From Arcticibacter eurypsychrophilus (GTDB lineage Bacteria; Bacteroidota; Bacteroidia; Sphingobacteriales; Sphingobacteriaceae), in assembly GCF_001730525.1 (NCBI RefSeq), contig NZ_MDFN01000011.1, forward strand, positions 1 to 64,000: a stretch of 64,000 nucleotides of DNA, read 5' to 3'. The notes below the pieces were generated by a model. That model searched no databases. It saw only the letters and a program-made list of their open reading frames with translations, and was not told the origin of the DNA. Both the position numbers and the translations under genes were made by a program. Of the stretch, positions 24,407-37,159 are shown one piece after another (position 1 is the stretch's first letter; every line of letters begins with the position of its first letter).

Positions 24407-26665
24407 ATGGCATTTGATATAGAAATGATCCAGAAGGTTTACAGCAATTTGGAAAGCCGTATTGAAGCTGCCAAAAAAGTTGTTGGAAAACCCCTTACCC
24501 TAACAGAAAAAATTCTTTATTCGCATCTATGGAGTGGTAATGCCGAAGAAGCTTACGGTCGCGGTACCTCTTACGTGGATTTTGCACCTGACCGTGTAGC
24601 CATGCAAGACGCAACTGCTCAAATGGCTTTGTTGCAATTTATGCAAGCTGGCAGGCCTCAGGTTGCAGTTCCTTCTACTGTGCACTGCGACCATTTGATC
24701 CAGGCAAAAATAGGAGCTACAGAAGATTTAGAAATTGCGAACAATACGAACAAAGAAGTTTACGACTTCCTTTCTTCGGTATGTAATAAATATGGACTTG
24801 GTTTTTGGAAGCCAGGAGCAGGGATCATTCATCAGGTAGTATTAGAAAACTACGCTTTCCCTGGTGGATTGATGATTGGTACTGATTCGCATACCCCTAA
24901 TGCAGGTGGATTAGGCATGATTGCTATAGGTGTTGGTGGTGCTGATGCTTGTGATGTTATGGCTGGCTTCGCCTGGGAGCTTAAGTTCCCTAAACTGATC
25001 GGTGTTAAATTAACCGGTAAGTTGTCAGGCTGGGCATCTGCTAAAGATGTTATCCTGAAAGTTGCTGGTGTGTTAACCGTTAAAGGCGGTACAGGTTGTA
25101 TCGTTGAATACTTTGGAGAAGGAGCACGTTCTTTGTCTGCAACCGGTAAAGCGACCATCTGCAATATGGGAGCTGAAATTGGTGCTACAACATCTGTTTT
25201 TGGATACGATAAAAAAGCGGAAATTTATCTGCGCGGAACAGGAAGGGCAGAAATTGCCGATCTTGCTAACCAGGTAAGCGCCCATTTAACAGGTGATGAT
25301 GAAGTGTATGCTAACCCTGAGCTTTATTTCGATCAGGTAATAGAAATTGACCTCGACACACTTGAACCTCATATTAACGGCCCTTTTACTCCCGATTTAG
25401 CATGGCCTATTTCTCAGTTTGCAGCAGCAGTTAAAGAACATAACTGGCCGGCAAAACTTGAAGTTGGTTTGATCGGTTCTTGTACCAACTCTTCTTACGA
25501 AGATATTACAAGGGCAGCATCTCTAGCTCAACAAGCGGTAGACAAACACCTGATTGCAAAAGCAGAATATACAGTAACTCCTGGATCGGAATTAGTGAGA
25601 TATACCGTAGAGCGCGATGGTTATCTGGATACATTTGAAAAGATTGGCGGTGTAGTATTAGCCAATGCATGTGGTCCTTGTATAGGTCAATGGGCTCGTC
25701 ATACTGATGATCCTACCCGCAGAAACTCCATTATAACCTCATTTAACAGGAACTTCGCCAAACGAAATGATGGTAATCCCAATACACATGCTTTTGTAGC
25801 ATCTCCTGAAATCGTAACAGCTTTGGCTATTGCGGGAGACCTGACATTTAATCCGCTAACAGATTTTCTGATTAATGAAAATGGTGAATCAGTTAAACTG
25901 GAAGAACCTCAAGGTATAGAAATGCCAATTAAGGGATTTGCAGTGGAAGATGCAGGTTACCAGGAACCAGCTGAAGATGGTACTGCTGTTGAAGTACTTG
26001 TTGATGAAAAATCCAGCAGACTGCAACTTCTTGCACCTTTCCCTGCTTGGGAAGGCGTTGATCTTAAAGGGCTGAAATTATTAATTAAAGCAAAAGGCAA
26101 GTGTACTACCGACCATATCTCTATGGCAGGACCTTGGTTGAAATTCAGAGGACACATTGACAATATTTCTAATAATATGTTGATCGGTGCGATGAATTAC
26201 TATACAGATCAAACCGATTCAGTCAAGAATCAACTGACTGGCGTATATGGTCCTGTTCCAGCTACTCAACGTGCTTATAAAGCAGCAGGTATTGGAACAA
26301 TTGTAGTTGGTGATGAAAACTATGGAGAGGGATCTTCACGTGAACACGCTGCTATGGAGCCCCGTCATTTAGGAGTTCGGGTTATATTGGTTAAATCTTT
26401 TGCCCGAATCCACGAAACAAATCTTAAAAAACAAGGAATGCTGGGTATCACGTTTGATGACCCTGCAGATTATAATAAGGTTCAGGAAAATGATGTAATT
26501 GACATTGAGGGATTGACTTCTTTTGCTCCTGAAAAACAACTTCATGTTGTACTTCACCATGGTGATGGAAAGTCTGAGTCTTTTGCTGTTAACCATACCT
26601 ACAATCAACAACAGATTGAATGGTTTAAAGCTGGTGCTGCGCTGAATATCATAAGGATGAAATAA
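24407..26665 (+). CDS. acnA: aconitate hydratase
   Basis: Aconitase isomerises citrate to isocitrate in the TCA cycle through a [4Fe-4S] cluster. The protein shows the cluster ligands in [11 protein letters not shown] (first Cys) and [10 protein letters not shown] (CxxC). It also has [41 protein letters not shown] and the swivelling-domain motif [15 protein letters not shown]. The frame is open for 30 more codons upstream (to 24317), but [12 protein letters not shown] at 24407 gives the family N-terminus and 752 residues. The layout is that of the mitochondrial-type enzyme. The gene symbol is a generic choice. Confidence 0.95.
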
Positions 26666-26695
26666 GAGGTTTAGAATCTTCAGTTAATTCAATAA

Positions 26696-26731
26696 TATAA
26701 AAGTCCCGGTCAATTGACTGGGACTTTTATA
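26696..26731. terminator. bidirectional terminator between aconitase and sucD
   Basis: 17-base arms (26696-26712 and 26715-26731) with core AAAAGTCCCGGTCA and one G-U pair, two-base loop, flanked by AT-rich sequence. The two genes are convergent, so it can serve both. Confidence 0.85.
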
Positions 26732-26777
26732 TTATATAGCTAATTGAAGATTATTATCCAGCTATTGAAAAATTACC

Positions 26778-33158: not shown

Positions 33159-33854
33159 ATGACAAAAGAAAATAATGCAGTAGTATCAGATAATGAGCTA
33201 CAGAATACACAAAGATACACATACGAGCAATTACTTGAGGGTAATAAAGTCTTTGTAGAAAATGAATTGAAACAAGATCCCGACTATTTTAAGAAATTGG
33301 CTGCCGGGCAGAACCCAAATGTACTATGGATAGGTTGTTCAGATAGTCGCGTTCCTGCAAATCAGGTTACCAACACTAAACCAGGTGATATATTTGTTCA
33401 CCGTAATATAGCGAATGTATGCGTGCATTCAGACATGAATATGCTTAGCGTGTTGGATTATGCAGTGAATGTATTAAAGGTAAAACATGTTATTGTAGCT
33501 GGCCATTACGGATGCGGAGGAGTGGCTGCAGCGATGACCAATAGACAGTTTGGCTTGATTGATAACTGGCTAAGACATATAAAGGATGTTTACAGACTTC
33601 ATTCCCATGAACTAGATCTAATTACAGATGATAAAACACGCGCCAATCGTCTGGTAGAATTAAACGTAATTGAACAAGTATTCAATTTATGTAAAACTAC
33701 TATTGTGCAAAATGCATGGCGTGAAAGAACTGATTTGGAAATCCATGGTTGGGTTGTCGATATCAGTACCGGGTATGTCAAAGATATGCACGTAAGCTGC
33801 AGTAATTCAGATAATCTTGGTAAAGTATTTGCTCTTAATCAGAACGAAAATTGA
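33159..33854 (+). CDS. can: beta-class carbonic anhydrase
   Basis: Reversibly hydrates CO2 to bicarbonate. The 231-residue protein has all beta-class zinc residues: Cys60, Asp62 and Arg64 in GCSDSR, and His116 and Cys119 in GHYGCGG. The short distance to the SulP gene (12 bases) implies translation from one transcript. Together they could trap or equilibrate inorganic carbon for carboxylases such as the acetyl-CoA carboxylase encoded at 8.7-10.6 kb. No signal peptide, so cytoplasmic. Confidence 0.95.
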   Translation: MTKENNAVVSDNELQNTQRYTYEQLLEGNKVFVENELKQDPDYFKKLAAGQNPNVLWIGCSDSRVPANQVTNTKPGDIFVHRNIANVCVHSDMNMLSVLDYAVNVLKVKHVIVAGHYGCGGVAAAMTNRQFGLIDNWLRHIKDVYRLHSHELDLITDDKTRANRLVELNVIEQVFNLCKTTIVQNAWRERTDLEIHGWVVDISTGYVKDMHVSCSNSDNLGKVFALNQNEN

Positions 33855-33876
33855 AAGAAAAGCAAGCTGTTTAATA

Positions 33877-33961
33877 AAATAAGCTGGTAATATAAAATGA
33901 AATGCCCCCATAAAGTTAGAAACTTTATGGGGGCATTTCATTTTATATTACCAGCTTATTT
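33877..33961. repeat. perfect 41-bp palindrome (hairpin) between carbonic anhydrase and gcvP
   Basis: Arms 33877-33917 and 33921-33961 are perfect reverse complements over 41 bases, separated by only AGA. The core is GC-rich (ATGCCCCCATAAAG), the outer part AT-rich. It lies between convergent genes, starting 22 bases after the carbonic anhydrase stop and ending 14 bases from the gcvP stop, so it very likely works as a bidirectional terminator. The length and perfection far exceed the other terminators here. Confidence 0.95.
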
Positions 33962-33975
33962 AAAATTAAAGTTTT

Positions 33976-36855
33976 TTAAACACTAAGTTCAGCATAAGCC
34001 TCAATAGGAGGACATGAGCAGATTAATGTTCTGTCACCTTGAGTATCATTCACTCTACCTACAGCTGGCCAAAATTTATGTTCGGCTACATAAGGTAATG
34101 GAAATGCCGCTTTATGGCGACTATATGCCTTCTCCCATACATCAGCAGTAACAACCGACGCAGTATGAGGTGCATTTTTTAAGATGTTATCGTGTTTATC
34201 AGCACCATTCATAACCTCATCCACTTCAGCCCGAATAGCGATCATCGCATCACAAAAACGATCAAGCTCATGTTTGGGTTCTGATTCAGTAGGTTCAATC
34301 ATCAACGTTCCAGCTACAGGAAAGGAGACCGTTGGCGCATGAAAACCATAGTCCATCAATCGTTTCGCTATATCAGTCACCTCAACACCATCATGCTTAA
34401 ATGCCCTGCAATCTAAAATCATTTCATGAGCACATCTTCCCTGGCTACCGGAGTAAAGAACAGGGTAATAATTTTCCAATCGTGATTTAACATAGTTAGC
34501 GTTTAATATCGCATACCTTGTTGCATTTGTTAGTCCTTCAGTACCCATCATCGCAATATAGGCATGAGATATAAGAAGGATTGAAGCCGATCCCCAGGGA
34601 GCTGATGATACAGCTGAAATGGAATGCTCATTATTAATGTTTACTACCGAGTGTCCGGGTAAATAAGGTACAAGGTGTTTAGCTACACCAATTGGACCCA
34701 CACCGGGGCCACCTCCACCATGAGGAATACAGAAGGTTTTATGCAGATTCAGATGGCAAACGTCGGCACCAATAGTAGCGGGACTAGTAAGTCCTACCTG
34801 AGCGTTCATATTTGCACCATCCATATAAACCTGGCCACCATTCTGATGAATGATACTACAGATCTCAATAATAGCCTCTTCAAAAACACCATGAGTAGAA
34901 GGATAAGTAACCATCAGTGCGCAAAGATTCTCTTTATATTGAATGGCCTTGGCATTCAGATCTTCGACATCTATATTTCCGTTCTCATCACACTTAACCA
35001 CCACCACTTTCATTCCTGCCATAGAAGCAGAAGCAGGGTTAGTTCCATGCGCAGAAGCTGGGATCAGCACAATATTACGGTGACTCTCATTTCTATCCGC
35101 ATGGTAAGCTCTGATCACCATTAATCCCGAATATTCACCCTGAGCGCCTGAATTAGGCTGAAGGCTCATTTCCGCAAAACCGGTAATCGCACATAACCAC
35201 TCATTTAATTCGGAAATTACCTGCATATATCCACCAACCTGATCGGTGGGAGCAAAGGGATGAATTTTACTAAATTCTGCCCAGGTTACAGGAAGCATCT
35301 CGGTAGTCGCATTCAATTTCATTGTACATGATCCCAAAGGAATCATCGAATGACATAAGGAAAGATCCTTTGCTTCTAATGACTTGATATAGCGAAGCAT
35401 CTCATGCTCTGCATGATGTGAATTAAATATAGGATGAGTGAGATAAGATGAACTTCTTTCCAGTGCAGAAGGAATAGCTGATACAATCTCCTTTTTCAGA
35501 AGATCAGGATTTGCATCATTCAGCTGTTTTCCTTTTACTTTGGCAAAGAACTTAACGATCATTTTTACATCCCCAAGAGATGTTGTTTCATCAATAGAAA
35601 TGGTTACTTCAGAGCCATTGTAGGAAAAGTTAGACTCATTATTAATCGCTTCAGCATGAATTGAAGTACTCAGCTGACCCAGATCAAAACGTATAGTGTC
35701 GAAAAAGGAAATATTAAGTTGTTTATAATCCAGTTTTTCAAGCGATGCTGCAAGCAGTGTAGCCAAACTATGAATTCGTACCGCGATATTCTTAATTCCT
35801 GTAGGGCCATGATATACCGCATACATTCCTGCCATGATAGCAAGTAAAGCCTGAGCGGTACAAATATTGGATGATGCTTTATCTCTTCGGATATGCTGTT
35901 CCCTGGTTTGCAAAGCCATACGGAGCGCATAGTTGCCCGTGTTGTCAATCGTTACACCAATGATCCGTCCAGGGATGCTTCTTTTATATACATCCTTGGT
36001 GGCAAAGTATGCCGCATGCGGACCACCGAAGCCCATAGGTACACCAAAACGTTGAGTTGAACCAACTACCACATCAGCTCCCCATTCTCCCGGAGGAGTC
36101 AGGATAGCTAAACTCATGATATCAGCAACTACAGTTAGTTTAATATTCCGTTCATGAAGCTCAGCAGCAAAGTTAGTGTAGTCATAAATACAACCATTTC
36201 CTGCAGGATACTGAACAATTGCACCAAACATCATCTCGCTCAGCTCAATAGTTTCATGATTACCAATCACTAACTCAATTCCAAACGGTTTAGACCTGGT
36301 CTTCAGTACATCTATGGTTTGAGGAAAAAGATTTTCAGAGACAAAGAAGATATTAGCCTGTGGATTTTTACGTAAACCATATTGCATAAACATCGCTTCA
36401 GCTGCCGCAGTACCTTCATCAAGTAAAGATGCATTGGCAATTTCCATACCTGTAAGGTCAGCAACCATGGTTTGGAAATTCAATAAGGCCTGAAGGCGAC
36501 CCTGAGATACCTCTGCCTGGTAAGGCGTGTATTGAGTATACCATCCTGGGTTTTCAAATATATTCCTTTGGATAACAGGAGGGGTGATTGTATCGTAATA
36601 TCCTTTGCCTATAAAAGACTTAAATACTTTGTTTTTTGATGCAGTCCGCTTTAAATCATTGATATACTCAAATTCGCTCTTAGGTGCCGGAAGGTTCATT
36701 GGGACTTTAAGCCTGATCTGTTCCGGTACAGTCTGCTGAATAAGCTCATCCAGCGAGTTAACACCAATTGTAGCAAGCATTTCTGCTGTTCCTGTACCAT
36801 CAGGGGCTATATGACGCGATTCAAATTTTTCTTTAAAATCAGTATTTAAATTCAT
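33976..36855 (-). CDS. gcvP: glycine dehydrogenase (aminomethyl-transferring), P-protein
   Basis: The P-protein decarboxylates glycine and passes the aminomethyl group to lipoyl-GcvH in the glycine cleavage system, feeding one-carbon folate. The single-chain form has two PLP-type halves: the N-terminal half has [29 protein letters not shown], and the C-terminal half has the PLP lysine in HLNLHKTF followed by [14 protein letters not shown]. The frame is open nine codons further, but the ATG at 36855 ([12 protein letters not shown]) gives a natural start and 959 residues. No glycine riboswitch is evident upstream. gcvT and gcvH are not in the window. Confidence 0.96.
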
Positions 36856-37159
36856 GAAAATGAAGGATAAAAGACAATGCAAAGATAAGAAAATGGCGTG
36901 AATTAAGAGATAGGATGGGTTTTATAAGAGGGAGGAAGAATTTTTACCATCAACAGAATATATTCCTAATTAATGCAGTCACACATTATTATATTATATA
37001 AAAATCAAAAGAAAGGAAACAATAATAGGTTCATAAAGACTTATAAAGACTATTCTTTGGTGAGAATCAGAATGGATTATCCTGAAATAACTCTTGATTA
37101 AAGAAGAATATTATAATTAACTAAAATTTTACGTATAAATACGCTTTAAAACGACCCGT

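Follow-up and report, generated by a model that had tools for sequence, protein, structure and literature searches.

In the nearly precise excision of Tn10, short direct repeats close to either end of the element serve as deletion endpoints; the process is aided by the inverted repeats and leaves a short palindromic stump behind. Palindromic DNA can also be the target of mobile elements: in the available part of one report, IS1397, ISKpn1 and ISPsy8 are described as IS3-family elements targeting REP palindromes, with ISPsy8 inserting at the symmetry axis of the predicted hairpin and producing a 3-bp duplication (PMC1525189). The SPRITE elements of Streptococcus pneumoniae are, in the accessible text of their description, small interspersed repeats which resemble a Rho-independent terminator, are enriched near gene 3′ ends and are possibly co-opted as terminators (PMC3049150). 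With regard to the origin of perfect stems, a single template-switch event can create or repair a perfect stem or paired changes, as stated in the part of the literature source drawn on here (PMC8794818).

The locus compared here with these systems lies in a 64,000-nucleotide stretch of Arcticibacter eurypsychrophilus DNA (contig NZ_MDFN01000011.1, positions 1 to 64,000; hereafter the window), which belongs to a draft genome of 4.69 Mb in 93 contigs (G000). Positions 33877–33961 form a perfect inverted repeat with 41-bp arms and the 3-base loop AGA, and the original prediction was correct in that all 41 of 41 pairs are complementary. The palindrome is the longest perfect hairpin of the window, the runner-up having 19-bp arms, while the longest perfect arm per window in first-order Markov sequences of the same length and dinucleotide make-up (n = 20) was 8–13 bp; perfect arms of 41 bp are far beyond chance. 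The + strand is predicted to fold at −65.7 kcal/mol and the − strand at −64.4 kcal/mol; for neither strand did any of 200 shuffles give a comparably stable fold. Further copies of the arm, which had been proposed as a point to check, were searched for in the 4.69-Mb draft genome, and no second copy of the outer 24-bp arm was found with up to 3 mismatches allowed. The fetched DNA, approximately 1.6 Mb, is a biased sample whose loci overlap in part and were chosen around gcvP and IS ends; it contained six distinct perfect hairpins with arms of at least 24 bp. The window palindrome was the longest of these, and stands at the top of a thin tail of long perfect hairpins without being unique. Elsewhere in the window (26661–26766), an imperfect inverted repeat of 53 bp (77%) was seen, with no spacer separating the arms.

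Table 1. Coordinates of the palindrome, its putative component parts and the adjoining genes in the window
Feature	Position	Strand	Observation
Carbonic anhydrase gene (Pro_CA)	33159..33854	+	Stop codon 22 bases from palindrome
Palindrome left arm	33877..33917	+	41/41 pairing
Outer stem, left half	33878..33889	+	Aligns with left half of G004 terminator: AAGGCCGGTA in G004, AATAAGCTGGTA in window
Terminator-like hairpin followed by T-rich stretch	33896..33942	both	
Putative IS3-family solo remnant, 43 bp, ends TGAAA...TTTCA	33898..33940	+	Boundary placed by comparison with intact and solo relatives
IS leader-hairpin core	33903..33935	+	31/33 positions equal to left-end leader of intact copies such as L134 and L140
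Loop AGA, 3 bases	33918..33920	.	
Palindrome right arm	33921..33961	−	41/41 pairing
Outer stem, right half	33949..33960	−	Aligns with TACCGGCCTT of G004 terminator; two-sided changes preserve pairing
gcvP, glycine dehydrogenase	33976..36882	−	TIGR00461, 1472 bits; stop codon 14 bases from palindrome

The palindrome is located within the 121-bp gap separating the stop codons of two converging genes, those of carbonic anhydrase (+) and gcvP (−), and a SulP-type transporter gene lies upstream of the former (Table 1). The gcvP open reading frame is listed from a TTG, the likelier start being the ATG at 36849, and the gene is 73–79% identical to gcvP of Mucilaginibacter, Daejeonella and Pedobacter. 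Read from either strand, the inner stem is rich in GC and leads into a T-rich stretch, and on both strands this arrangement is positioned 3′ of the end of a converging gene. Because the T-rich strand follows the GC-rich stem in both directions and the position is that between converging genes, the palindrome, in line with one option of the original prediction, most likely acts as a bidirectional intrinsic terminator which would end both transcripts. A promoter reading was also considered and set aside; two sigma-70-like matches occur in 33840–33990 vs 0.5 in shuffles, a result that is not interpretable in this phylum.

The carbonic anhydrase/gcvP spacer repeatedly carries long terminators in the genus. 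At the same spot, the perfect palindrome of G002 (L005 1671–1734) measures 30 bp and its core is unrelated, G005 has a long imperfect palindrome lacking the window core (L007 near 1430–1490), and G001 has a 13-bp terminator, also without the window core. The best same-genus match over the gcvP/carbonic anhydrase stretch was G004, in which the gene pair is kept and the terminator is a plain 10-bp one (AAGGCCGGTA...TACCGGCCTT). Compared with its stem halves, the outer arms of the window palindrome show matching changes on both sides (AAGCTGGTA / TACCAGCTT), with the extra length located in the loop; judging by position and over a short stretch, the outer arms are probably homologous to the two halves of the G004 terminator. 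The window core is absent from the same-spot spacers of all four of these genomes (G001, G002, G004 and G005), and the recent origin that had been suggested for the palindrome is supported to this extent. Each of the four spacers nevertheless contains some terminator-like hairpin, which suggests that function has been kept, and not sequence. In G003, which was read in part, other sequence follows carbonic anhydrase, and the core pattern was matched just once, with 1 mismatch, at a site elsewhere. A likeness between the outer arm of the window and the G005 arm (TAATAT followed by an A-rich stretch), judged by eye, was discarded as too A-rich to argue from. In the 170 bases after gcvP in the 12 closest of 80 named loci, where the neighbouring gene may differ from carbonic anhydrase, there were plain hairpins or none, and the IS core was absent by eye. 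Two Hymenobacter genomes have perfect terminator-like palindromes right after gcvP, of 35 bp (L076 8887–8960) and 29 bp (L046 8933–8994).

The middle of the palindrome is a different matter. It agreed at 31 of 33 positions with the leader of an insertion sequence (IS) in the form seen in L134 and L140, vs 21/33 for the next-best place in the window; eight chosen sequences were also aligned. BLAST and pattern searches of the genus recovered the inner unit in G002, where it is found inside the loop of a different terminator, in G004, and at a second site in G000. Across the bacterial family, an 18-base half of the core (up to 1 mismatch) was matched in at least 85 of 301 genomes, own genome included. 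Among the matches listed, a number were situated at contig ends or occurred as inverted pairs approximately 1.4 kb apart, thereby indicating an insertion sequence. The IS elements read at core matches carry orfA and orfB, and copies with both ends placed measure 1412–1447 bp, with the motif at the left end. In the one copy that was scanned (L140), orfB matched the NCBIfam IS3 transposase model NF033516 (329 bits, E 3e-98). Pfam domains in this copy were rve, rve_2, HTH_21 and HTH_Tnp_1, with rve and HTH_21 in orfB and HTH_Tnp_1 in orfA, i.e. the HTH and DDE integrase core expected of an IS3-family orfA/orfB pair. Other IS copies were identified through tblastn searches using L136, L138 and L140 proteins as queries.

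In a typical left end of this IS (TGnAnTGCCCCCAAAAAGTTAGACACTTTATGGGGGCATTTTTATG), a short loop separates the left terminal repeat from its complementary arm, after which come a T run and the start of orfA. In 28 of 36 left ends with a downstream orfA, no fewer than 11 of the 14 leader-arm positions were complementary, the eight misses being six G286 copies with a different leader (8/14), L138 (10/14) and L207 (9/14). Terminal inverted repeats with TG...CA-like ends are present, in the window as TGAAATGCCCCC...GGGGGCATTTCA; ends of intact copies are mostly TGnAnTGCCCCC on the left and GGGGGCAnTnCA on the right, and some start with TA or end with TA. A tandem pair of IS left ends, 24 bp apart, was observed in G280 (L137 563–604). 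The element in the window consists of the 43-bp remnant alone and carries no transposase genes, and tblastn queries with the orfA and orfB products from three copies gave no match in the window. The window element therefore appears as a relic of an IS3-family insertion sequence and not as a member of the group. Taken together with the outer arms, the palindrome looks composite, with an IS-leader-like middle and outer arms derived from an older terminator, a feature that the original prediction had missed. An earlier suspicion that it might be a mobile-element scar is strengthened by the IS3-family leader hairpin forming its core.

The landing sites of intact copies were analysed among 130 motif matches, examined after merging duplicates among the matches listed and including some chance matches. 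Both ends were placeable for 21 intact copies, six of which come from one genome, G286, whose sites share sequence. Identical 3-bp duplications flank 14/21 of the intact copies (mixed-flank control 0.031; binomial 7e-17), and nested complementary stem halves (score of at least 8) surround 15/21 (mixed-flank control 0.226, random positions 0.057). Once joined, the flanks of 11/21 copies have fold energies at the 5th percentile of the background or lower, vs 0.08 for mixed flanks. A run of A leading into a GC run was present in 62 of 128 distinct flanks vs 0.122 of 1150 random 30-mers. The mixed-flank control is high, here and below (0.226–0.281), which is a point against the explanation by an IS scar; the reason is that flanks look like halves of terminators even when taken from different sites, and this resemblance is itself in favour of terminators as the sites. 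The six intact copies not nested by score are four of the six G286 copies, L134 and L218. The G286 copies (L136, L186–L190) have a different leader and occupy sites sharing sequences such as AAGTCCTCGCTGCG and CGCTGTGGGCTTT, so that they possibly target a repeat family.

The pattern of flanks suggests that this IS3-family group, in the bacterial family studied, prefers terminator loops as landing sites. A broader proposition, to which we would give an even chance, is that the group uses intrinsic-terminator loops generally, recognising the shape or A-stem-T layout and not the sequence, that its own leader would replace the broken terminator, and that it would collapse to a solo terminator kept by the host.

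Collapsed copies were collected as solo hairpins. A strict rule that required an IS-type right tip gave 16 solos including the window copy, dropping L130, L150, L151, L154, L160, L181, L182 and L185; the IS-type tip is no independent evidence, as it forms part of the selecting rule. Units of approximately 43 bp were nested in a stem in 12 of the 15 non-window strict solos (mixed control 0.271, random positions 0.057), a 3-bp duplication was kept in 4/15, and the right arm starts as a leader arm does (GACACT or GATACT) in all 15. In a looser set of 24 solos, window included, 14/24 were nested (mixed control 0.281), 4/24 had duplications (control 0.060) and the joined flanks, i.e. the empty sites, folded at or below the 5th percentile in 8/24 vs 0.04 for mixed flanks. 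Left-end relics running into the orfA region (35 rows) were nested in 3/35 cases (mixed control 0.094) and had duplications in 0/35, which is as expected if half an IS is left and lends no support to terminator nesting. The group scored as having no transposase was defined by tblastn with three query pairs at 1e-3, so some of its rows may hold diverged IS copies. In intact copies, the leader arm and right end share the direct repeat TGGGGGCA exactly in 8 of 21 and have 4–7 bp in common in the others. As a leader-type inner arm combined with an IS tip is the expected product of deletion, the solos may be read as natural near-precise excision stumps. At L150 (starting at 1801), what was the left half of a terminator (AAAAGCAAAGCCCCC) is now the pairing partner of the IS hairpin's right arm (GGGGGCTTTGCTTTT), possibly as the product of a template switch or a deletion.

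The window copy itself has the solo form (TGAAA, core, TTTCA). A 3-bp target duplication was not found at the window site, where the flanks are AAA / TTT, and the idea that an insertion with its duplication is still visible there was dropped. The flanks are in fact inverted copies (AAAA / TTTT), so that no direct trace of the proposed insertion is seen at this site, which counts against the explanation by an IS scar. One loop-side base of the window core departs from the leader (A for C), in the direction that makes the arms pair, and a similar though less perfect state was seen at L194. No intact IS of the group was found in the own genome: two orfB matches were just 36% and 31% identical, and the one orfA match had 31% identity and three stops. 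The core-pattern search of this genome (1 mismatch) returned the window site and one decayed left end, with the reversed control pattern also returning one match. At this decayed left end (L105; L139 1732–1749, G000:C93:63231–63248), a remnant orfA start is legible and an apparent terminator left half lies beside it, from which it would follow that the IS group was once present in the own genome.

Based on comparison of sequences, we consider it probable that the palindrome arose by IS insertion into a terminator loop, loss of the IS body and template-switch correction of the arms, giving a rebuilt bidirectional terminator. The history would start with an ordinary terminator between the converging carbonic anhydrase and gcvP genes, into the loop of which an IS3-family element of the terminator-loop-preferring group would have inserted. 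The inserted IS would have brought its own terminator-like hairpin, situated before orfA and with the left terminal repeat as one of its arms. Loss of the IS body would then have occurred by deletion between the inner arm of the leader hairpin and the right terminal repeat, which sometimes share the short direct repeat TGGGGGCA, leaving a hairpin of approximately 43 bp with the left end joined to the right tip. At least one template-switch (quasi-palindrome correction) event would subsequently have copied one arm from the other, erasing the target duplication and making all 41 pairs perfect. What is observed directly is the composite likeness, the existence of both intact and collapsed relatives, the way in which these sit nested in terminator stems, and the many 3-bp duplications. 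We infer the order of events, the excision route and the template switch. Arm homogenisation at the window site is an added assumption; a template-switch correction would jointly explain the perfect arms, the lost duplication and the paired changes of the outer stem.

Several other explanations were weighed against this history. That the 43-bp unit is a mobile mini-element (MITE), moved in trans by an IS3 transposase and inserted as such in the terminator loop, we regard as improbable. It would account for the 3-bp duplication retained in 4/15 solos, and G176 carries three solos (L111, L144, L145), whereas its only match to an IS3 transposase is remote, at 36% across part of the protein; in a search of nine genomes for the transposase, three had a match of at least 50% identity, three had remote matches and three had none (G175, G139, G033). 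However, the three G176 solos differ from one another, the leader-type inner arm of all 15 non-window solos is what deletion of an IS would be expected to produce, and approximately 43 bp is very short for transposition. An ordinary intrinsic terminator could also have been extended stepwise by template-switch mutation, with no mobile element involved and the likeness to an IS leader coincidental. Long perfect terminator palindromes without an IS core do exist, at the same gene pair in G002 (30 bp) and in the two Hymenobacter genomes (35 and 29 bp), G005 has a long imperfect one, and such palindromes, at the same spot and elsewhere, count against the explanation by an IS scar. Nevertheless, the agreement of the core with the IS leader, which includes the loop side and has no near equal in the 64 kb, makes a purely stepwise origin very unlikely. 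The very stable predicted fold would also suit a hairpin that serves a purpose besides termination, as a stable processed RNA or as a protector of the 3′ end. However, the four same-genus genomes read do not retain this sequence at the corresponding position, and when the entire window was scanned against Rfam at the gathering threshold there was no match; the processed RNA raised in the original prediction thus finds no support, and we hold it to be highly improbable.

An assembly or library artefact, in the form of a fold-back join, deserves mention since the draft genome is in 93 contigs, but it is extremely unlikely, because the outer arms match their own sides of the G004 terminator and the flanking genes are in the expected order, each arm running into its correct neighbour. 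In addition, similar palindromes exist in other genomes, and 85 bp is shorter than common short reads. A rival of another kind concerns the excess of terminator loops among the landing sites, which may reflect selection keeping harmless insertions after wide landing, and not target choice. Insertions in genes would be lost, and selection against them could produce part of the excess; loop-centred insertion with matching stem halves, seen in 15/21 intact copies vs 0.057 at random positions, would not readily come from selection alone. We therefore consider this explanation rather unlikely, and the excess is more plausibly a sign of targeting than of selection. Even if selection were responsible, the reading of the window palindrome as an IS scar would be left intact.

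The IS-scar history would explain in concrete terms how a perfect hairpin of such unusual length came about, and it draws attention to a mobile element group which seemingly targets transcription terminators as a low-harm landing site. If true, the solo hairpins would constitute a terminator class of transposon origin, left behind by a low-harm targeting strategy as nested terminators across many genomes, and their nested anatomy would allow insertion, collapse and arm correction to be traced at many sites. They would also provide natural test cases for the origin of perfect stems by template switching.

With Tn10 excision, the proposed origin of the solos shares the deletion route and the palindromic stump; it differs in that the stump would be the solo hairpin of an IS3-family element, and in that the relics are natural and not the outcome of a laboratory event. 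Like the REP-targeting elements, as far as these are characterised in the part of the source available (PMC1525189), the group analysed here belongs to the IS3 family and has an extragenic palindrome as its target. In contrast to them, its apparent targets are the loops of individual, unrelated terminator-like hairpins and not one repeat family, and the IS has a leader hairpin of its own. SPRITE elements are unrelated in sequence, and insertion into terminator loops is not described for them in the accessible text (PMC3049150). Template switching was studied in RNA genes, according to the portion of the source used (PMC8794818), whereas here it is proposed for a terminator with an IS relic. 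Among the literature matches listed, with subscription journals mostly outside coverage, there was neither an IS that targets intrinsic terminators in general nor an IS3 group that combines terminator targeting, a leader hairpin and solo stumps. The window palindrome looks like what is left of a familiar type of element at a familiar type of site, and what appears to be new is the combination of the two.
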